Below are positions 2,297 to 45,516 of a stretch of 64,000 bases of DNA, piece by piece. Source of the stretch: a virus; the IMG/VR virus record IMGVR_UViG_3300027752_001458, positions 45,676 to 109,675 of that record; one strand, given 5' to 3'. The notes beneath the pieces are model-generated. The model did not search any database. It was not told where the DNA came from and was given only the letters and a program-made list of their open reading frames with translations. A program made the translations under genes and the position numbers. Position 1 is the first letter of the stretch, and each line of letters starts with the position of its first letter.

Positions 2297-3316
2297 ATGG
2301 CAAACCTTTTTGAAAGGGCCGCATGTTTTACAGATATACATTACGGCTTAAAACAAAACAGTAGACAGCATCTTAAAGACTGTCACAATTTTATAGATTG
2401 GTTTATAGCAGAAGCAAAGGCTCGAGATTGTGAGACTTGCTTCTTCTTAGGCGACTGGCATCATCACAGAGCAAGTATTAATATTGCTACGATGAATGCT
2501 ACTATTAAAGATCTTAAAAAGCTGAACGACAACTTTAGCAAAGTTTACTTTATAACTGGTAATCACGATTTGTACTATAGAGAGAAACGTGATCTTAACA
2601 GTGTAGAATTTGCTAGGGATTTAGAAAACTTTGTTATGGTAGACGAACACTTCTTGCAAGACGGTGTTGCTATTATTCCATGGCTAGTCGGTGACGAACA
2701 TAAACTGTTAAACAAAGTAGATTGCAAGTACATGTTTGGGCATTTTGAGTTACCATACTTTAAAATGAATGCAATGGTAGAGATGCCAGACCATGGTGGT
2801 ATCACAGCAAAAGACTTGTCTAATCCAGAATATGTATTCAGTGGTCACTTCCACAAGCGACAATACAAAGGCAATATCCATTATATGGGTAATGCGTTCC
2901 CGCACAACTATGCTGATGCACAAGATAACGAGCGTGGTGCTATGTTCCTCGAATGGGACCAAGAGCCACAATATGTTAATTGGGCAGAATGTCCTAAGTA
3001 TGTTACTATGGGACTTAGAGAATTACTAGAAGCACCTGAGAAATTCTTAGACGAGAATACACATGCTAGGATTAAATTAGACGTTGCTATTAGTTACGAA
3101 GAGGCAAACTTTATAAGAGAAACATTTGCTGAAAAGTTTAGTGTTAGAGAACTACAACTTATTGTCGTAAAAGAAGAAGACGAAGTTTTCGATGGAGAAG
3201 AAATTAATTTTGAGAGTGTTGACCAAATTGTAATTAGTCAATTGGAAACAATCGAAAGTCAATTGGTAGAAACACATCGACTAATTGAAATTTATAGGAA
3301 TATTGAAATTGCTTAA
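2297..3316 (+). CDS. 47: Recombination endonuclease subunit gp47 (Mre11-like)
   Basis: A 339-residue calcineurin-type metallophosphoesterase, partner of gp46 in the T4 Mre11/Rad50-type nuclease that resects DNA ends for recombination-dependent replication. Metal-binding motifs appear in order: TDIHYG (12-17), a GDWHHH motif (about 53-58), GNHD (about 93-96) and SGHFHKR (about 184-190). Length matches T4 gp47 (339 aa). The ribosome site AGGGA precedes the ATG by 8 nt. It lies 8 nt after gp55 and overlaps gp46. Confidence 0.93.
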   Translation: MANLFERAACFTDIHYGLKQNSRQHLKDCHNFIDWFIAEAKARDCETCFFLGDWHHHRASINIATMNATIKDLKKLNDNFSKVYFITGNHDLYYREKRDLNSVEFARDLENFVMVDEHFLQDGVAIIPWLVGDEHKLLNKVDCKYMFGHFELPYFKMNAMVEMPDHGGITAKDLSNPEYVFSGHFHKRQYKGNIHYMGNAFPHNYADAQDNERGAMFLEWDQEPQYVNWAECPKYVTMGLRELLEAPEKFLDENTHARIKLDVAISYEEANFIRETFAEKFSVRELQLIVVKEEDEVFDGEEINFESVDQIVISQLETIESQLVETHRLIEIYRNIEIA

Positions 3317-5084
3317 AATTAAAAATGTAACAGCCAAGAACTTTATGAGTGTAGGTAACAACTTGCAAGCCGTAACGTTCGATACTGATTCATTGACATT
3401 AGTGTTAGGTCATAACTTAGACCTAGGTGGCGATGGTAGTAGGAACGGTACAGGTAAGACTACTATTATTAACGCACTCAGCTATGCACTTTACGGCGAG
3501 GCACTGACTAACATCAGAAAAGATAATCTTATTAATAAGACAAATGGTAAAGGAATGATTACCACTGTTGACTTTGAGATTAAAGGAACTGAGTATAGAA
3601 TTGAACGTGGTCGAAGACCTAACGTGTTAAAGTTCTATATCGATGGTAACGAATCGGCTGACAACGAACAGCAAGGTGATATGCGTGAAACTCAAAAAGA
3701 CATCGAGCGTGTCATTGGGTTCCCACATAATATGTTTAAGCATTTAATTGCATTAAACACATACACTGAACCGTTCCTCAGTATGAAAACAAATGACCAA
3801 CGAGACATGATTGAACAGTTGTTGGGCATTACTGAAATTAGTTCTAAGGCAGAAGTGCTAAAGGAATTACTCAAGTCTACTAAAGACAGTATTAAAGACG
3901 AAGAGTCTAGGATACATGCAGTACAGAATGCTAACAAACGTATCGAGTCCAGTATTAAAGACATCGAAAGTCGGAGTAAGGCTTGGGGCAGACTCAAAGG
4001 AGATAAAGTTCATGGATTGCAAACTAGTTTAGATACATTAGAACACACTGACATTAAAGCAGAGCTAGACTGTCACAGAAAGATTGTGGATATTAATGAA
4101 AAACAAGCAAAGCTAACGGCACTTAAAACAGACTTGACCACAAGAACAACGTCAATGAATCGAAGTGACAATAAACTTACTACCTTAGAAGCTAACTTAA
4201 CAAAAGCACTCGAAGGTGTATGTCCTACATGCGAGCAAGGTACTGCACATTTAAGCACACATGAAAAGTATACTGATGATTTGAGTGAAGAGATTAAAGA
4301 AGAGCAACGGTACAATGTTGAGCTAGTTGATAAAATTAGAGAGATTACTTCTACTATTAAAACACTTGGCAATATTCCTGAGACGCCTATTACGTTTTAT
4401 AACAAAATGGAAGATGCGTTACAGCACAAACATAATGTTGAAACGTTACAGGCACAAATTGAAGAAAAGATTAAAGAAGAAAATCCGTATGTCGAGCAAG
4501 TAGATCAACTTAGAACATCGGGTATCGAAGAAGTAAGTTATGAATCAATAAACGATTTCACTAGTTTAAAAGAACACCAAGAGTTCTTGCATAAACTATT
4601 AACCAGTAAAGACAGTTTTATTCGTAAAAAGATTATTGACCAAAACTTACAATACTTAAACTACCGACTGAACTACTATTTAGAAAAGTTGGGCTTACCA
4701 CACGATGTTAAATTTAACAGTGACTTAACTGTTGATATTACAGAGTACGGTAGAGACTTAGACTTTGATAATTTAAGTAGGGGCGAACGTAACAGACTTA
4801 TACTAGGTATGAGTTGGGCGTTTAGAGACATTTACGAAAGTCTTAACCAGCCTATGAACTTGATGTGTATCGACGAACTAGTAGATAGTGGCATGGACAC
4901 AACAGGTGTCGAGAATGCACTAGCAGTTCTTAAGAAGATGGGCCGAGAGTCAAACAAGAATGTATTCCTTATTTCGCACAAAGAAGAATTACAAGGGCGT
5001 GTTAACAATGTCTTGTATGTTGTTAAAGAAGGAGGATTCACTAGTTACAGTAATGACATAGAAATCCTTGATGAGAATACGTGA
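3309..5084 (+). CDS. 46: Recombination endonuclease subunit gp46 (Rad50-like ATPase)
   Basis: SMC/Rad50-type ATPase, partner of gp47. From the chosen start: Walker A RNGTGKTT (45-52), a coiled coil, a zinc-hook CPTC (Cys305, Cys308), a second coiled coil, an ABC signature LSRGERNR near 488 and a Walker B-like MCIDELVDSG near 520. There is no ATG in frame at the N terminus. TTG codons lie at 3285, 3303 and 3309; I chose 3309 because AGGA at 3296-3299 is 9 nt upstream of it. Any of them makes the gene overlap the end of gp47, implying coupled translation. Confidence 0.92.
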   Translation: MLKIKNVTAKNFMSVGNNLQAVTFDTDSLTLVLGHNLDLGGDGSRNGTGKTTIINALSYALYGEALTNIRKDNLINKTNGKGMITTVDFEIKGTEYRIERGRRPNVLKFYIDGNESADNEQQGDMRETQKDIERVIGFPHNMFKHLIALNTYTEPFLSMKTNDQRDMIEQLLGITEISSKAEVLKELLKSTKDSIKDEESRIHAVQNANKRIESSIKDIESRSKAWGRLKGDKVHGLQTSLDTLEHTDIKAELDCHRKIVDINEKQAKLTALKTDLTTRTTSMNRSDNKLTTLEANLTKALEGVCPTCEQGTAHLSTHEKYTDDLSEEIKEEQRYNVELVDKIREITSTIKTLGNIPETPITFYNKMEDALQHKHNVETLQAQIEEKIKEENPYVEQVDQLRTSGIEEVSYESINDFTSLKEHQEFLHKLLTSKDSFIRKKIIDQNLQYLNYRLNYYLEKLGLPHDVKFNSDLTVDITEYGRDLDFDNLSRGERNRLILGMSWAFRDIYESLNQPMNLMCIDELVDSGMDTTGVENALAVLKKMGRESNKNVFLISHKEELQGRVNNVLYVVKEGGFTSYSNDIEILDENT

Positions 5085-5506
5085 GCCAGTGGACATATAA
5101 AGGTAAACAAGTAGACGAGCTACCGACAGACTGCGAAGCATTTGTTTACCTAATCACAAACTTAACTAGCGATAAGAAGTACGTTGGTAAAAAGTTAGCA
5201 AAGTTCAAAACAACCAAGCCTCCCTTAAAGGGAAAGAAGAATAAACGCCGTGGCACTAAAGAAAGTGACTGGCGTACATATTGGGGCAGTTCGGATCACT
5301 TAAATGCTGATGTGTTAGAGCTAGGCGAAGATAAGTTTACAAGAGAAATATTGCATTATTGCCCAACTAGAGGCATAGCAAGTTACATCGAAGCAGAAGA
5401 ACAATTTAATCGAAATGTTCTCTTGACAGATGAGTATTATAATGGTATAATAAACGTCAGAGTAGGCGGTTCAAAAATACTAAAGGAACATTTTGGAAAG
5501 ACATAA
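5081..5506 (+). CDS. GIY-YIG-like nuclease domain protein
   Basis: 141 residues, GTG start overlapping the gp46 stop as GTGA. Near the N terminus FVYLITN and KKYVGKK form the two halves of a degenerate GIY-YIG motif (residues 21-37). YWGSS near 66 and a Glu at about 105-108 (EAEEQFNR) fit the arginine/glutamate region of that fold, though the assignment is weak. A basic segment (KGKKNKRRGTK) may bind nucleic acid. Phage proteins of this type include homing endonucleases and DNA-processing enzymes. A perfect sigma70 promoter sits inside its 3' end and points into the RNA-like region downstream. Confidence 0.65.
   Translation: MSQWTYKGKQVDELPTDCEAFVYLITNLTSDKKYVGKKLAKFKTTKPPLKGKKNKRRGTKESDWRTYWGSSDHLNADVLELGEDKFTREILHYCPTRGIASYIEAEEQFNRNVLLTDEYYNGIINVRVGGSKILKEHFGKT
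5423..5451 (+). promoter_or_regulatory. Perfect-consensus sigma70 promoter inside the GIY-YIG gene
   Basis: TTGACA at 5423-5428, spacer of exactly 17 nt, TATAAT at 5446-5451: the ideal bacterial sigma70 promoter. It lies within the last 85 nt of the GIY-YIG coding region and no protein gene follows on plus for more than 1.5 kb, so a non-coding transcript starting near 5458 is the natural reading. Confidence 0.8.
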
Positions 5507-5961
5507 CTATATATTGAACATGGCACACACCGACACCCAGTCTCGCTAATAAAAACGATCCCAGACACAAAGTCAAACTAATAAAGTACAACACATAGGA
5601 CTATGCACCAGCCCCAACCGAGGCCAATATCGGACTCTTCGACAAACCTGAACAAGGTGCGAGAATTAGAGATGCATAGCGGTAAAGATACGACACATAC
5701 GAAAAACTGTATTAGAAGGATGTAGGCACTGAGAAAAAGCAACCTACAAGTTTGTATAACTAAACTCTACAAGGTTATACAAATTTCCGTGAGATGAGAC
5801 GGTAGTGTATGGGGACAGAAAGCTCACTGGTTCCTTTAAGCACCCGAGTTAGAGATGATGATGGCTCATATGATGACAATATGACCGAACAGCTTCTCCT
5901 TGCAATAGGAGAAGTATGACTCCAACTATATGATAACTTTAAATTACTTCTTTAATTTAAA
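5458..5961 (+). ncRNA. Candidate structured non-coding RNA (about 500 nt), new or unrecognised
   Basis: No ORF of useful size occurs here, but the plus strand has many well-paired stems: CTATGCA/TGCATAG enclosing GCACC/GGTGC (about 5584-5678); TGTAGG/CCTACA (5721-5748); a 13-bp stem with one G-U pair at 5748-5760/5774-5786; GTGAG/CTCAC (5789-5793/5823-5827); CATAT/ATATG (5867-5883); a 7-bp CTTCTCC/GGAGAAG hairpin (5893-5914); and a 9-bp A/T hairpin (5938-5961). The motif TTAGAGATG occurs twice (5666, 5849). A perfect sigma70 promoter lies directly upstream. I could not match it to tmRNA, RNase P RNA or group I/II intron cores. Both ends are inferred; no U-tract terminator is seen. Confidence 0.55.
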
Positions 5962-6027
5962 AAAGTTACTTCAAGAACTGAAATGAATGAAATGATTGAA
6001 GTTAGTAGAAGTAAAGATACGAAGTAT

Positions 6028-6546
6028 CTATAAAGTATTAAACAATTCAACAGTATCTCTGTAAGACAAACGTAAATTAACTGTATACAAATAAAAGTCT
6101 TTGTTTAATGAATGTAATGAAGCTCCATGGAATTTAGTTACGTCTAGTATACACACTTCACCTGGATGTAACATTTTATTGTGTTCTGAGTCTTTATGTA
6201 TTATTTCAATTGGAACATCTTCTAAGTTAAACATTATATTAGTTTTTCTTGTTAGAGGGTTCTTCCATCCCATTAACCAATCCTGATGTAGTTTCACCAT
6301 TGTACCTTGCTTAACAGTTTCTATTGCTACACTATGCTCCGCAATGTCTAACGGCAACGGAGTAGCGTCTATTATTTGTTGTTGTAGGCTTTGAGGCATG
6401 TCGCGGAGTAAAAAAATGTGCTGATCCATTTCAGCACGGTCTTCTACTAAATGAAACTCACTAGCCTCTTTGAACTGCGTTATAGGTTCAACAAGTTGTC
6501 GCATTGCGTCAACATCATAGTCCCACTTTAAAATTGTGCTATACAT
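6028..6546 (-). CDS. 2OG-Fe(II) oxygenase-like protein
   Basis: 172 residues with the double-stranded beta-helix signature of 2-oxoglutarate/Fe(II) dioxygenases: metal ligands H87-x-D89 (KLHQDW), distal His140 (TKFHGAS) and Arg159 (NLRLSY) as the likely 2OG anchor. The strand pattern KTNIMFNLED...GEVCILDV between them fits. The substrate is unknown; phage members could hydroxylate protein, nucleotide or lipid groups. It overlaps the upstream minus gene, a second and diverged protein of the same fold, by 19 nt, so the two are co-translated. It ends against the candidate RNA region, convergent with it. Confidence 0.6.
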   Translation of the reverse strand: MYSTILKWDYDVDAMRQLVEPITQFKEASEFHLVEDRAEMDQHIFLLRDMPQSLQQQIIDATPLPLDIAEHSVAIETVKQGTMVKLHQDWLMGWKNPLTRKTNIMFNLEDVPIEIIHKDSEHNKMLHPGEVCILDVTKFHGASLHSLNKDFYLYTVNLRLSYRDTVELFNTL

Positions 6547-6977
6547 TCGCTGTAGAACATCCTATTATTGACTGTTACAAACTCAGCTTTGAAGGGATTT
6601 TCGCGGTTATCACACCCATGTTCTTTAGTAGTATCTATTATAAAGAACTCGCCTACTTGTATAGTGTGGTCTTCTATTACACCATTATTAGTGTGCTGTA
6701 CTGTAGCAGGCCCCTCTCCCACGTTAATCAGTATATTACTGTTTCTCCCACCGATATCTATGTGCAAGTGCAGTTGATCATGTTCCATAATATACTCTAA
6801 TCCCACGTGGTGTAACGGCTCAATATGGTACTTTTCGATGAAGTCAGCAGGCATCCTGCTCCATAACTGCTGGGCAGAATACAGCTTTTGGCGAATCTTC
6901 CTAAGCTGTACTACGCTACTCAGCATCTTGTCTGTACGCAAAAACTCGAGGAATTGCTTAAATTCTATACTTTCCAT
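6528..6977 (-). CDS. 2OG-Fe(II) oxygenase-like protein, diverged paralogue
   Basis: 149 residues. H72-x-D74 (LHIDIG) and distal His120 (TTKEHGCDN) sit at the spacing expected for the Fe(II) facial triad, on either side of strands resembling those of the downstream gene (NILINVGEGPA, VGEFFIID). A clear 2OG-binding Arg after the distal His is not obvious, so it could be an inactive or cupin-like relative. The start codon lies exactly 5 nt behind a GGTAAATA late motif, so the message is predicted to be leaderless. It forms a two-gene operon with the 172-aa gene. Confidence 0.5.
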   Translation of the reverse strand: MESIEFKQFLEFLRTDKMLSSVVQLRKIRQKLYSAQQLWSRMPADFIEKYHIEPLHHVGLEYIMEHDQLHLHIDIGGRNSNILINVGEGPATVQHTNNGVIEDHTIQVGEFFIIDTTKEHGCDNRENPFKAEFVTVNNRMFYSECIAQF

Positions 6978-7021: not shown

Positions 7022-7050
7022 TTGACTTTGGTACTAGATACCAGTATAAT
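7022..7050 (+). promoter_or_regulatory. Sigma70 promoter of the 7-10.4 kb operon
   Basis: TTGACT at 7022-7027, 17-nt spacer, TATAAT at 7045-7050. The ATG of the first gene is at 7084 with AAGGAA upstream. Only the last base of the -35 deviates from consensus, so early transcription by host polymerase is expected. Confidence 0.8.
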
Positions 7051-7083: not shown

Positions 7084-7551
7084 ATGTACAATATATACCA
7101 AATCAAACTAAGCGAAGCAGTATACAACTTTGTTAACGGTCCAGAAGGCGGACACACAAAGACTGCTGAAAAGTACCCAGAGTACAACACTCATATGGAA
7201 GTAATGCACAAGGGTTCAAAAGGATATACTCCTGAGATGTTTGCACATTACACTAAGGTTTGTGAGGTTGCTAACTTTGAACCTTCAGATCAAATTCTAG
7301 AAGAAGTGTTTAAAATCTTAAACGGTTACTACTTCGATGAAGAGACTGAGACAGACGAGACATTTGATGCTTTCGTTAGTGGTTTTAAAATGAAGACAGT
7401 CACTCGCAAGAACGGTGAAGTTGTAACTTTCAGAGACATGCATTCACTATCACTTGGTGACATTGTTGAAGACACTTCAACTGGTGAGTTCCACATGGTA
7501 GACGGCATGGGCTTTAAGCAAATTCAAACTAAAATAGCGGAGTTAGTGTAA
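7084..7551 (+). CDS. Hypothetical protein, first gene of early operon
   Basis: 155 residues, not recognised. The N-terminal half carries a helical segment around EAVYNFVNG and the C-terminal third is beta-rich (KMKTVTRKNGEVVTFRDMH, then SLGDIVEDTSTGEFHMVDG), resembling a small SH3-like or hydrolase-associated barrel. No signal peptide or membrane segment. The ribosome site AAGGAAAGAG sits upstream and a sigma70 promoter ends 34 nt before the ATG. It abuts the next gene as TAAATG. A role in early takeover would fit the promoter but is inference. Confidence 0.75.
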   Translation: MYNIYQIKLSEAVYNFVNGPEGGHTKTAEKYPEYNTHMEVMHKGSKGYTPEMFAHYTKVCEVANFEPSDQILEEVFKILNGYYFDEETETDETFDAFVSGFKMKTVTRKNGEVVTFRDMHSLSLGDIVEDTSTGEFHMVDGMGFKQIQTKIAELV

Positions 7552-7782: not shown

Positions 7783-8089
7783 TATATTACAAGAAGTAAC
7801 AGACTGGGGCAAGTACTCAGTTAACAACGGCATTTATCATGTGAACGGTGCAGGACAGTTAGTTGCATATAAGCCATCAGATGATGCTGAACTTAAAACG
7901 TTTATTAACCCATTAAAGCAGTTTAGCAAAAGTAGACGTAAGTTTGTTAAGCTCGGGCAAGTAGAAGAGCAGTTAGCAGATGACGTTATTGTTGTACAAG
8001 GCAGTAACGGAAAAACTTACACAATCCAAGATGGCAAATGTAGTTGCCCTGGTTACACTTACAGAGGAGATTGTAAACATGTTAAATAA
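7775..8089 (+). CDS. SWIM zinc-finger protein
   Basis: 104 residues ending in KCSCPGYTYRGDCKHVK, a textbook SWIM zinc motif (C-x-C-x(8)-C-x-H) at residues 88-103. SWIM domains bind zinc and mediate DNA or protein contacts, for example in helicases, transposases and Shu2-type recombination factors. The preceding 80 residues include a basic stretch (FSKSRRKFVKLG). The stop codon lies inside the start of the lipoprotein gene (ATG 8079), so the two are translationally coupled. DNA binding during replication or recombination is likely but not shown. Confidence 0.75.
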   Translation: MIDILQEVTDWGKYSVNNGIYHVNGAGQLVAYKPSDDAELKTFINPLKQFSKSRRKFVKLGQVEEQLADDVIVVQGSNGKTYTIQDGKCSCPGYTYRGDCKHVK

Positions 8090-10430
8090 AATTATTAGTG
8101 TATCAGCAGTATTATTGTTAGGAGCATGTGCAAGCGGCGGTGGGTCATCCCCTGCTCCAGTGACACCTGTAGTATCTACTTCACAAGCAACTACTACACC
8201 CACAGACCAACGGCATGCGTTTGACACATGGTCTAAAGTGTTCACTACTAATTTGTCAGGCTACAGTGCTAGTGTAACACAAAAGTATGACATGACGGAT
8301 TATACCACAACAGGTTTGCCTGCTCCAACTGAAAAATATAAAATAGCAGACTATGGTTTTTTCCGTTCTACTATTACAGGCAGTCATCCTGGGTTTGACT
8401 ACGAAGACACAACACCTATTTTAAGTTTCATGCAACATGGTCAGATTATCAGAGCTGACTTAAATGGCGATGGATGGCAAGACTTTTACTTGGCGAATTG
8501 GGTCGGCAATGACAGGTCTGAATTTGAACCTGACAGTATGTTGTTTGCATTTTTAAATGATGGTGACGGTAACTTTATATTAAGCAACGATTTGTTTCCA
8601 GAAGGCAACCCTTGTTTTAGGGGCTCCGGTTGTGACAACAATACTGAACACCAAAAAGGTTTAGTGGTTGCAGACTTTAATGGAGACGGCATTGACGACA
8701 TCTATCAAGGCACTACACTTGTGCTCAGCGACAACGGAAAGTTATACGATAAAGGCGACACCCATTTGCCTATGGCAGAGTTGTTTGAGAAGTGTATGCC
8801 TGGTCAATATAACAGTATGTGTTTCCAGCACGATGCTGATGTAGGCGATGCAGACGGTGACGGTGACATAGACATTTTTATTCCTATCTCGTCAGCACAT
8901 GTTGATAACTATCCTATGCCTTGGGCAATGTTAATAAATGACGGCACTGGTAAGTTTACTGCTAATCAAAACTTCCCAACACAGGCGGCAAATGTGTTTG
9001 CTACAGCGGCTACTATAGGCGACTTCGATGGTGACGGACACGGTGATGTTGCTGTTGGGTGGTTTATGACAGCCGAAGCAAAAGCAAATGGCTTTAGCGA
9101 AAACTATGACAATAGTGCAGGCACGGTATTTTGGAATGATGGAAATAATGATTGGAGAAACAGAGCATGGACAGAGCTTCCTGACAACTACTACGGTGCA
9201 AACGGAAATGCAAACGACATAAAAGCATTTGATTTTAACGGAGACGGCTTACTTGATATTATACTTGCGTCTACTAAGCACGAACCATATTACGATGGCA
9301 GGGTTGTACAGTTTTTCTTAAACAACGGTGATGAGACATTTAGTGATGTTACAAGCACAGTTAATCCAGACACAAAATATGTTAACGGTTTGTGCCCAGA
9401 CTCAACTGGTCCTTGCTATTGGAACGGAGACGGCAACTTAGAAATATTAGACTTTGATGCAGACGGTGATTTAGATATCGTCGACACAGTGTTTGGTACT
9501 TATGCGTTAATAAACGAAGACGGCACGTTTACAATATACGATGACTTTCCTACTTTTGACGACAGCACATCTTACTACCCAGTAGAAATAGACAACAAGT
9601 ATTTCTATGACTTTATTGCTTCAACTACGGAATACAGCGACACAGAAAGTATCCAAACATTTTATCAAGTGTTAGATCCGCCTTTTGTAAAAATGATGGA
9701 AGAGATTACTAACAAGCCTAAAGCATACGTTGAAGGTATATTTGAAAGTAAGATGTTGTTTAGCGACTTACGACAGAACCAACGCTCAACCTCATTGTTT
9801 GCTACTGATATGGAAACATACGGTATGGCAGGAGTGACACACAGAACAGACACGTTCGGATTTAATGCAGGTAAACTTACTGGTGATAACAATGGTAGTT
9901 TTGTTGGACTTGACTATGTAAGCAATAACATACACGTTGGCATTAACTATGTTAACAACACTATGTCAATGTATAATCCTACAGAATATTACGGCACAGG
10001 TTCAGCTGATGTTGACTACGACACTGTTAGTGTGTTTGCAGAACAAGTGACTTATTTGACAGACACATGGTATACATCATACGGTGTTGAACTTTACCAC
10101 ACTGAAGTAGATAGCTTTACTGAACAGAACAGTACACACAATGTTACAGTGGATGCATTTAATATGTCTGACGCAAAACTGTTTGCTGATATTACAGGCA
10201 AGTTTAATTCTAAATTAGGCTCAACGTTTGTAAGTTTAGGGTATGAAGTTTATCGTGGACTAGGTAGCAGTACTGTTAACTTTGCTGATGTACTAGAGTA
10301 TGATTCATCGCGTGAACTGGACTTAGGTAAGATTTCGGTATTACACATGTATAACTCTTTTTATGCAAGAGCTTCTATGAATACAGAAGAGTATAACACT
10401 TTTGAAGTTGGTTTTTTAATTAACTGGTAG
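8079..10430 (+). CDS. Large FG-GAP/VCBS beta-propeller lipoprotein with barrel-like C terminus
   Basis: 783 residues from ATG 8079, chosen because GAGGAG is 9 nt upstream and a lipoprotein signal follows directly (MLNKIISVSAVLLLGAC, lipobox LGAC). The mature part has at least six Ca-binding FG-GAP/VCBS loops: DLNGDGWQD (~126), DFNGDGIDD (~198), DADGDGDID (~256), DFDGDGHGD (~314), DFNGDGLLD (~384) and DFDADGDLD (~457), consistent with an integrin-alpha-like propeller. From about residue 600 alternating beta strands run to a terminal Trp (VGFLINW), resembling an outer-membrane barrel or autotransporter end. It is last in an operon driven by a sigma70 promoter, so probably expressed early. Lipid-anchored display on the infected cell, perhaps for superinfection exclusion or adhesion, is inference. 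Confidence 0.85.
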   Translation: MLNKIISVSAVLLLGACASGGGSSPAPVTPVVSTSQATTTPTDQRHAFDTWSKVFTTNLSGYSASVTQKYDMTDYTTTGLPAPTEKYKIADYGFFRSTITGSHPGFDYEDTTPILSFMQHGQIIRADLNGDGWQDFYLANWVGNDRSEFEPDSMLFAFLNDGDGNFILSNDLFPEGNPCFRGSGCDNNTEHQKGLVVADFNGDGIDDIYQGTTLVLSDNGKLYDKGDTHLPMAELFEKCMPGQYNSMCFQHDADVGDADGDGDIDIFIPISSAHVDNYPMPWAMLINDGTGKFTANQNFPTQAANVFATAATIGDFDGDGHGDVAVGWFMTAEAKANGFSENYDNSAGTVFWNDGNNDWRNRAWTELPDNYYGANGNANDIKAFDFNGDGLLDIILASTKHEPYYDGRVVQFFLNNGDETFSDVTSTVNPDTKYVNGLCPDSTGPCYWNGDGNLEILDFDADGDLDIVDTVFGTYALINEDGTFTIYDDFPTFDDSTSYYPVEIDNKYFYDFIASTTEYSDTESIQTFYQVLDPPFVKMMEEITNKPKAYVEGIFESKMLFSDLRQNQRSTSLFATDMETYGMAGVTHRTDTFGFNAGKLTGDNNGSFVGLDYVSNNIHVGINYVNNTMSMYNPTEYYGTGSADVDYDTVSVFAEQVTYLTDTWYTSYGVELYHTEVDSFTEQNSTHNVTVDAFNMSDAKLFADITGKFNSKLGSTFVSLGYEVYRGLGSSTVNFADVLEYDSSRELDLGKISVLHMYNSFYARASMNTEEYNTFEVGFLINW

Positions 10431-44790: not shown

Positions 44791-45516
44791 ATGTATACAG
44801 AAAAAGTTACATGGGTACATCATTGGACAGACAAGACCTTCAGCTTTAAAACAACACGCAACCAGAGTTTTCGATTCATAAACGGCGAGTTTGCTATGAT
44901 TGGATTAAAAGGCGAAGAGGAAGGATCTCGACCATTGCTTAGAGCATATAGCATTGCTAGTGCTAACTATGAAGACGAAATCGAGTTCCTAAGTATTAAG
45001 GTACCGGATGGACCTCTAACAAGCCGTCTACAGCATTTAAAAGTCGGAGACGAAATAGTAGTAATGCCTAAGACAACGGGCACTCTAACGATTGATAACG
45101 TAACCTCAGCGAAGAATCTGTATTTGCTTTCAACAGGAACAGGTCTTGCTCCGTTTTTAAGTATTATTAGAGATCCCGGCACTTACGAAAAGTTTGAAAA
45201 CGTTATTGTAGTACACACCACTCGAACACATGCTGAACATACATACACTGACTTGATGGTAGAGTTAGCAGAAACATTTTCATTTACATATTACGATACT
45301 TGCACCCAAGAAGATTATGTGCGTAAAGGACGTTTTTGGGAACATGTAGAACACTTTACTGACAACGGATTCAATAAAGACACTGACAGGGTTATGGTTT
45401 GTGGCGGCCCAGAGATGAATTATCAATGTAGAGACTACTTTGAAGGTAACGGATTTATAGAAGGAAACTTGGGCGAACCAAATGACTTTGTATTAGAACG
45501 TGCATTCGTAGACTAG
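44791..45516 (+). CDS. fpr: Ferredoxin/flavodoxin-NADP+ reductase
   Basis: 241 residues from ATG 44791 (AAGGAT upstream; the longer open frame runs into tRNA-Ala). FAD motif R51-A-Y-S, NADP motif LLSTGTGLAPFLS (112-124) and VMVCGGPEMN (~207-216) with the C-terminal VLERAFVD ending, the alphaproteobacterial FPR type. It moves electrons between NADPH and ferredoxin or flavodoxin. In E. coli Fpr with flavodoxin reduces radical SAM enzymes, and three radical SAM genes start 48 nt downstream. Probably acquired from an alphaproteobacterial host, which is inference. Confidence 0.92.
   Translation: MYTEKVTWVHHWTDKTFSFKTTRNQSFRFINGEFAMIGLKGEEEGSRPLLRAYSIASANYEDEIEFLSIKVPDGPLTSRLQHLKVGDEIVVMPKTTGTLTIDNVTSAKNLYLLSTGTGLAPFLSIIRDPGTYEKFENVIVVHTTRTHAEHTYTDLMVELAETFSFTYYDTCTQEDYVRKGRFWEHVEHFTDNGFNKDTDRVMVCGGPEMNYQCRDYFEGNGFIEGNLGEPNDFVLERAFVD

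Follow-up and report, generated by a model that had tools for sequence, protein, structure and literature searches.

A structured RNA under structural selection is almost certainly encoded at 5590-6029 of a 64,000-nucleotide (nt) stretch of DNA from an uncultured phage (IMG/VR record IMGVR_UViG_3300027752_001458, positions 45,676-109,675), hereafter called the window. This RNA follows a gene for a small GIY-YIG nuclease, with which it is inherited, and carries two short direct repeats that change together between phages. The evidence strongly supports a new class of phage RNA, and we give a probability of about 40% to the reading that it is a guide-like RNA working with the nuclease. The region 5423-5961, in which the initial annotation had proposed a structured non-coding RNA, is flanked by gp46 (3285-5084) and the GIY-YIG gene (5081-5506) on one side, and by a convergent gene ending at 6028 on the other. 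The RNA was confirmed, but its proposed end was not, as the conserved unit reaches about 6029. The features of the RNA are the following, with the percentage of cells paired in 49 sequences:

5507-5589, plus strand: variable 5' leader, from the stop of the GIY-YIG gene to the start of the conserved RNA, with only short shared words in the alignment
5590-6029, plus strand: conserved structured non-coding RNA of class A, from homologue alignment and covariation
5601-5679, plus strand: 5' domain closed by helix P1 (5601-5607/5673-5679, 99.4%)
5618-5621/5630-5633, plus strand: helix P2 (99.0%)
5635-5638/5668-5671, plus strand: helix P3, a weak member (73.5%)
5646-5648/5656-5658, plus strand: helix P3a, a weak member (70.1%)
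5687-5713, plus strand: hairpin P5 (100%), double changes in 2 of 5 pairs
5722-5747, plus strand: hairpin P6 (98.8%), its almost invariant loop UGAGAAAAAGCAA kept in classes A and A'
5751-5783, plus strand: long stem P7 (96.0%)
5766-5770 with 5848-5853, plus strand: pseudoknot PK-A, formed by the P7 loop (99.2%)
5789-5846, plus strand: second pseudoknot, in which P8 (5789-5793/5823-5827) crosses P10 (5800-5808/5840-5846) and P9 (5812-5816/5830-5834), each 100% paired
5893-5914, plus strand: hairpin H between the repeats (87.8%)
5966-6014, plus strand: long stem P11 of the 3' tail (58.7% in the modelled register; RNAalifold gives a better one, columns 438-444/484-490)
6015-6029, plus strand: terminal hairpin P12 (100%), double changes in 3 of 6 pairs; read on the minus strand, it is a UUCG hairpin that follows the convergent gene

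Relatives of the RNA were gathered from two sources. Eighty IMG/VR loci with the GIY-YIG gene were collected by protein search, and loci L082-L250 are among the matches listed by two DNA scans of viral contigs with RNA motifs. Judging from the relatives, the IMG/VR contigs are inferred to be of marine origin. A blastn search with 5458-6030 revealed strong non-coding homologues in some of the 80 protein-found loci, and nhmmer across all loci found at least 143 full-length matches above 200 bits, at least 90 of them unique, with a mean identity of 71%. The window itself, the record it comes from and repeated contigs are counted among the 143 matches, leaving 90 unique RNAs with the window included. 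In their alignment, near-invariant blocks are interrupted by free indels.

Covariation was tested on the 90 unique RNAs with a tree-aware script of our own, in the manner of R-scape, and many Watson-Crick pairs scored above every null simulation. The structure model comprises 80 pairs in 14 helices, including two pseudoknots, and was scored on 49 sequences of less than 93% identity. It pairs 92.4% of the cells, compared with 31-42% when the partner is slid by 1-3 columns. The model was drawn from the same sequences, so this percentage leans to the model, and double changes, affecting both sides of a pair, are the stronger evidence. They were found in 54 out of 80 pairs (14-22 in the slid controls), including all 15 pairs of P7 and PK-A, and in 421 cells, against 34-92 in the slid controls and 112 in shuffles. 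Conserved G-U pairs on the plus strand (columns 263/281 in 49/49, 257/291 in 46/49 and 117/143 in 43/49 sequences) become C-A mismatches on the minus strand, and the RNA was therefore assigned to the plus strand.

The fold of the single sequence is weakly better than that of shuffled DNA (z -1.49). Energy alone would thus have missed the RNA, and the proof lies in the covariation. The unremarkable folding energy would suit a decayed coding sequence or chance folding, an explanation that is refuted by the counts of double-change cells and to which we give practically no weight. A coding origin was also rejected from the lack of a long open reading frame (ORF), the free indels and the compensatory changes. 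As first described, the stretch is free of ORFs: leaving aside where the two adjacent genes end, none longer than 54 amino acids overlaps 5507-6027 on either strand.

Three pairings noticed in the single sequence proved to be real and conserved, namely the stem at 5748-5786 (helix P7, ten pairs modelled), the hairpin at 5893-5914 (hairpin H), and the long-range pairing CTATGCA/TGCATAG (P1). The word TTAGAGATG, reported to occur twice in comparable positions, is indeed present in two copies (5666-5674 and 5849-5857). One copy belongs to the 3' strands of P3 and P1, and the other to the 3' strand of PK-A. As they sit in different helices and differ from each other in relatives, this repeat carries little meaning and was rejected as a functional repeat.

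Rfam 15 at gathering score detected three tRNAs elsewhere in the window and nothing on the RNA region, which agrees with the earlier failure to recognise a transfer-messenger RNA (tmRNA), RNase P RNA or intron. The same search gave no match to GOLLD, ROOL, HEARO, tmRNA, RNase P, or group I and II introns. Scanning 5350-6050 at E<=5 gave three unrelated weak matches and no RF00028 (group I intron). A group I intron with an endonuclease gene was rejected on this basis, and the gp46 and GIY-YIG ORFs are intact. Similarly, tmRNA was rejected because ARAGORN, run on the whole window, found three tRNAs elsewhere and no tmRNA with its tRNA-like domain and tag frame. In 26 related loci (8 + 18), scanned at gathering score only, no Rfam match was found. 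The lack of an Rfam match, the 90 or more unique relatives and the compensatory changes in helices strongly support the earlier proposal of a new phage RNA class.

The search of cultured phages, made with class A and not with the classes BC and D described below, gave one chance match. In bacterial genomes an exact 17-base motif was the only motif searched, and the RNA was rejected there: the motif gave eight stretches from genome_contigs, none of which reaches nhmmer E <0.5, and they are therefore regarded as chance. No report of a structured RNA linked to GIY-YIG was found in the open literature, a coverage that leaves out most subscription journals and preprints. In the parts available to us, the reports on cyanophage S-SCSM1 (PMC9602691) and Melnitz (PMC9004378) deal with RNAs predicted by Rfam and with a tmRNA in two pieces, which differ from the window RNA.

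The gene upstream of the RNA is the second part of the proposed system:

5081-5506, plus strand: SegE-type GIY-YIG nuclease gene, 141 amino acids, matching Pfam PF19835 and co-inherited with the RNA

The protein matches PF19835 (SegE_GIY-YIG) over residues 4-124 with E 1.2e-33 and 116.4 bits, far above the curated cut-off of 25. It is a SegE-type nuclease, for which site-specific DNA cleavage is predicted. The domain leaves little space for a separate recognition domain. Across 197 relatives, 54 positions, including Y23, Y34, G36, R57, R88 and E104, are at least 97% conserved. SegE-type GIY-YIG proteins in the phages collection, and likewise phrog_447, are often annotated as NAD synthetase.

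RNA and nuclease gene are inherited together, as shown by their arrangement and by the nuclease tree. The comparison covered the 80 nearest gp46 loci. In 56 of them the sequence extends more than 1.8 kb downstream, and all of these hold the GIY-YIG gene and the RNA within 2.5 kb. The 24 shorter loci hold both parts (15), the GIY-YIG gene alone (5), the RNA alone (2) or neither (2). Relative to gp46, both parts are inverted together in 14 loci (L306-L314, L321, L324, L333, L092 and L143), in ten of which the flanking genes o273 and o283 are both visible; an inverted RNA without the gene occurs in two truncated loci. In L332 and L006 the cassette lies between the same two genes in opposite orientation. 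Other sequence separates gene and RNA in L068, L058 and L090. On the tree of 197 nuclease proteins the RNA class changes 19 times, compared with a mean of 88 after shuffling; here L172 was entered as A' and L090 as none, since their gene and RNA are separated by other sequence.

An RNA accompanies the nuclease in 174 out of the 208 loci listed (127 of class A including A', 39 of BC and 8 of D), a proportion that overstates the rate because L082-L250 were collected by RNA motifs. Of the 80 loci collected by protein search alone, 30 match the profile of class A, and 58 out of 75 protein-found loci with enough downstream sequence fall into A/BC or D similarity clusters. In the remaining clusters (E, F and singles) no RNA-like alignment was recognised, and these were dropped. 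Classes BC and D are more distant RNAs, which also follow a SegE-type nuclease. Class BC, located after the GIY-YIG gene in L016, L061, L070, L336 and relatives, has little sequence in common with A; it has a conserved core, GTCGACGTAGGTTGGGAAAGGTCAGAGCCCA, and a hairpin between ACTC/ATCT-tagged repeats, and no Rfam match was found among the scanned loci. Class D (L029, L030, L046, L076, L341 and L342) and some BC members possess a common CACCTTGAGG...CTGGTG domain, which suggests modular exchange. The phages PA5oct and Atu_ph07 possess the same late sigma-gp47-gp46 order as the window, and within 8 kb on either side neither a GIY-YIG gene nor an RNA-sized gap is annotated directly after gp46.

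The oddest feature of the RNA is a set of two direct repeats around hairpin H, which vary between phages:

5865-5877, plus strand: repeat R1 (CTCATATGATGAC), with identity covariation with R2 and the top covariation score
5926-5937, plus strand: repeat R2 (CTATATGATAAC), with identity covariation with R1

The two highest covariation scores in the RNA (5870/5930 and 5865/5926) correspond to equal letters and not to base pairs. The four variable letters before GAT are identical in R1 and R2 in all 90 unique RNAs; the last three of them are CAT in 48, CGT in 19, CTT in 16, TAT in four and CGA in three. On the RNA tree this triplet changes 12 times in each repeat, and all 12 times R1 and R2 change on the same branch. 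Directly after GAT, R1 always has G and R2 always has A (90/90), and from there on the available letters agree. For the two letters further upstream, agreement at fixed offset was found in 46 out of 90 RNAs, R1 having one extra base, and 11 out of 14 changes fall on a shared branch.

The other classes follow a similar pattern. In the divergent class A', R1 consists of ACTC and a word, and R2 of ATCT and nearly the same word, as seen in the ten clear pairs among 15 distinct pairs matched automatically; the other five are visibly wrong pairings. Among 22 distinct pairs of class BC, the tags ACTC and ATCT differ by transitions only, and the two words agree at positions 4-9 in 22/22. In class D, matching words around a hairpin were recognised by eye in five out of six loci, L046 being unclear. 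The fixed differences between R1 and R2 in class A (G/A) and class BC (C/T) preserve pairing with one common strand, as the G of R1 can pair with U/T just as the A of R2 can; the additional base that R1 has in class A is left unexplained by such pairing. We infer that R1 and R2 both base pair with one target, located outside the RNA.

The equality of R1 and R2 would also be expected if they were DNA sites for cleavage, recombination or immunity, used by the nuclease or by a recombinase, with the RNA fold being a separate matter. Overlap regions of recombination sites must stay equal and thus show identity covariation, and the cassette is found in both orientations. Against this unlikely explanation, the G/A difference is fixed in 90/90 and the repeats lie inside the RNA. 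Furthermore, none of nine proteins tested matches a recombinase (three of the nine have no match in either library), and the segment from R1 to R2 is present in 90/90 RNAs, although these had been chosen as full-length matches. A ribozyme or self-processing RNA, cutting or joining at the repeats, would agree with the compact core, the two pseudoknots, the near-invariant loop and the twin sites. Nevertheless, an internal guide would be expected to show Watson-Crick covariation with the repeats, and no such guide was detected; given also the lack of an Rfam ribozyme or intron match and the intact neighbouring genes, we regard this possibility as improbable.

In the guide-like reading, RNA and nuclease would be partners. 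The small, domain-only nuclease would bind the pseudoknotted body of the RNA and its near-invariant P6 loop, and the twin words would serve as short recognition segments, both base pairing with the same nucleic-acid target outside the cassette. The RNA would thereby bring the nuclease, or its dimer, to the target, with a likely use against competing phage or host DNA, or in spread of the cassette. This reading is supported by the joint inversion of gene and RNA and by the RNA class tracking the nuclease tree. No nuclease column follows the repeat after correction (best p 0.002, 74 columns, 63 sequences), which weakly speaks against specificity read by the protein. The wider proposal of a previously undescribed RNA-directed phage GIY-YIG system, with two identical words reprogrammed together and the same plan in classes BC and D, is put forward tentatively.

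The main rival is a regulatory RNA acting in trans through two equal seeds, which would pair with host or phage RNA; the nuclease gene would then be a linked selfish passenger, or a neighbour transcribed together with it. Twin seeds that differ mostly by transitions are suited to RNA-RNA pairing, SegE genes occur without the RNA, and the gene and RNA are separated by other sequence in the three loci named above. This explanation, which we consider rather unlikely, accounts less well for gene and RNA being kept together on inversion and for the RNA class following the nuclease tree. In addition, no exact complementary site was found in the phage's own record.

Several results weigh against the guide-like reading. 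In seven cultured phages with related SegE genes, read out of 794 matching records, the next ORF begins within about 150 nt, and the RNA would not fit directly downstream; the SegE family in general therefore needs no such RNA. Within class BC alone, identity covariation is suggestive at most (best pair E 0.28, none <0.1), and as its words vary too little, this class supports the repeat rule by inspection and not by test. Covariation from -150 to +140 revealed no cis partner of the repeats, nor did covariation over the nuclease gene, 200 nt upstream of it and 500 nt downstream of the RNA, where the best repeat-to-flank scores are 28-29 against a background maximum of 41-47. The 10-letter word has two matches in its own 109-kb record, both of them R1 and R2 themselves. 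The same two matches to the repeats were found in G002, and G003 has the two repeats and one ACTTGATGAC at 45118. Enrichment of own words in the loci was not convincing. A cruder count gave 101 vs 59, and TCGTGAT occurs on the reverse strand seven times in 131 kb vs nine times in 608 kb; these counts cannot be interpreted, because reverse-strand TCATGAT mostly represents the palindrome within R1, and some of the TCGTGAT matches stem from near relatives with shared positions. Finally, the guide of TnpB has 20 nt according to the accessible text of PMC11061315, unlike the two identical words of 8-12 nt found here.

Among known systems, SegE free-standing homing endonucleases (PF19835) include the window protein as a clear member, and differ in that the seven cultured phages leave no space for an RNA. 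In IscB/HEARO a conserved structured RNA lies downstream of the nuclease gene. The OMEGA systems (TnpB/IscB) share this order with the window loci, and differ in the type of nuclease, which is GIY-YIG here, with no RuvC or HNH domain detected by Pfam in the other eight proteins. Moreover, covariation revealed no guide matching the 200 nt upstream of the gene or the 500 nt downstream of the RNA, and neither the window nor the 26 related loci matched HEARO in Rfam. For IS607 TnpB/reRNA (RAGATH-18), the part of PMC11061315 available to us describes a structured RNA downstream of the nuclease gene, which was found through stable co-occurrence and supplies specificity.

Short split guides, similar to the twin words, are used by TIGR-Tas and the IS110 bridge RNA, and in some TIGR arrays the guides lie within stem-loops, as far as the consulted sections of PMC12045711 describe. 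The window differs in having no Nop-domain or IS110 match in Pfam among nine proteins, and a single unit instead of an array. Furthermore, its words are identical and have the same sense, whereas the spacers of tigRNAs are directed at different strands.

GOLLD and ROOL are large structured RNAs of unknown function, to which the initial annotation had compared the RNA. A scaffold of this kind, acting as cage or assembly platform, would agree with a large, structured, phage-borne RNA. The window RNA has no Rfam match, and to our knowledge neither nuclease linkage nor twin words have a counterpart there. The comparison overlooked these two most informative features, and a scaffold RNA appears very improbable. 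No known system compared here agreed with the cassette in all its defining features. The RNA adds a well-supported pseudoknotted phage RNA family, tied to a nuclease family with no RNA partner known from the searches made. The evolutionary signature of the twin words points to two sites in one RNA that recognise the same changing thing. An RNA-guided system would represent a new branch of RNA-guided nucleases; otherwise, the partner of the words would reveal a new two-seed regulatory RNA.

Regarding transcription, the initial annotation had proposed that a promoter inside the nuclease gene drives the RNA:

5423-5451, plus strand: perfect sigma70-like promoter inside the nuclease gene, 12/12 consensus letters, fully matched in 11 of the 87 loci of class A

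The site TTGACA-17-TATAAT is present as described, within ORF 5081-5506, but not as a feature of the whole family. The 11 loci with the perfect promoter include some near relatives and always carry it in codons for LLTDxYYNGII. Seventy-five of the remaining 76 class A loci score 7-9 out of 12, and one scores 10. In 75 control stretches none reaches 12/12, seven reach 10 and three reach 11. Since only 11 of 87 loci are perfect and controls score up to 11, the perfect promoter characterises a subclade at most. In one subclade the RNA may be driven by it, and loci without it must use another start or co-transcribe the RNA with the nuclease gene. A second strong sigma70-like site (11/12) lies at 7022-7050, upstream of an ORF at 7084.

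Beside the cassette, the window encodes on the minus strand two proteins without Pfam or PHROG match (6028-6546 and 6528-6977), which are found in this position in many relatives. Further downstream, an ORF of 816 amino acids at 7980-10427, without a PHROG match, has a lipoprotein-like start and FG-GAP repeats, with a match in Pfam.
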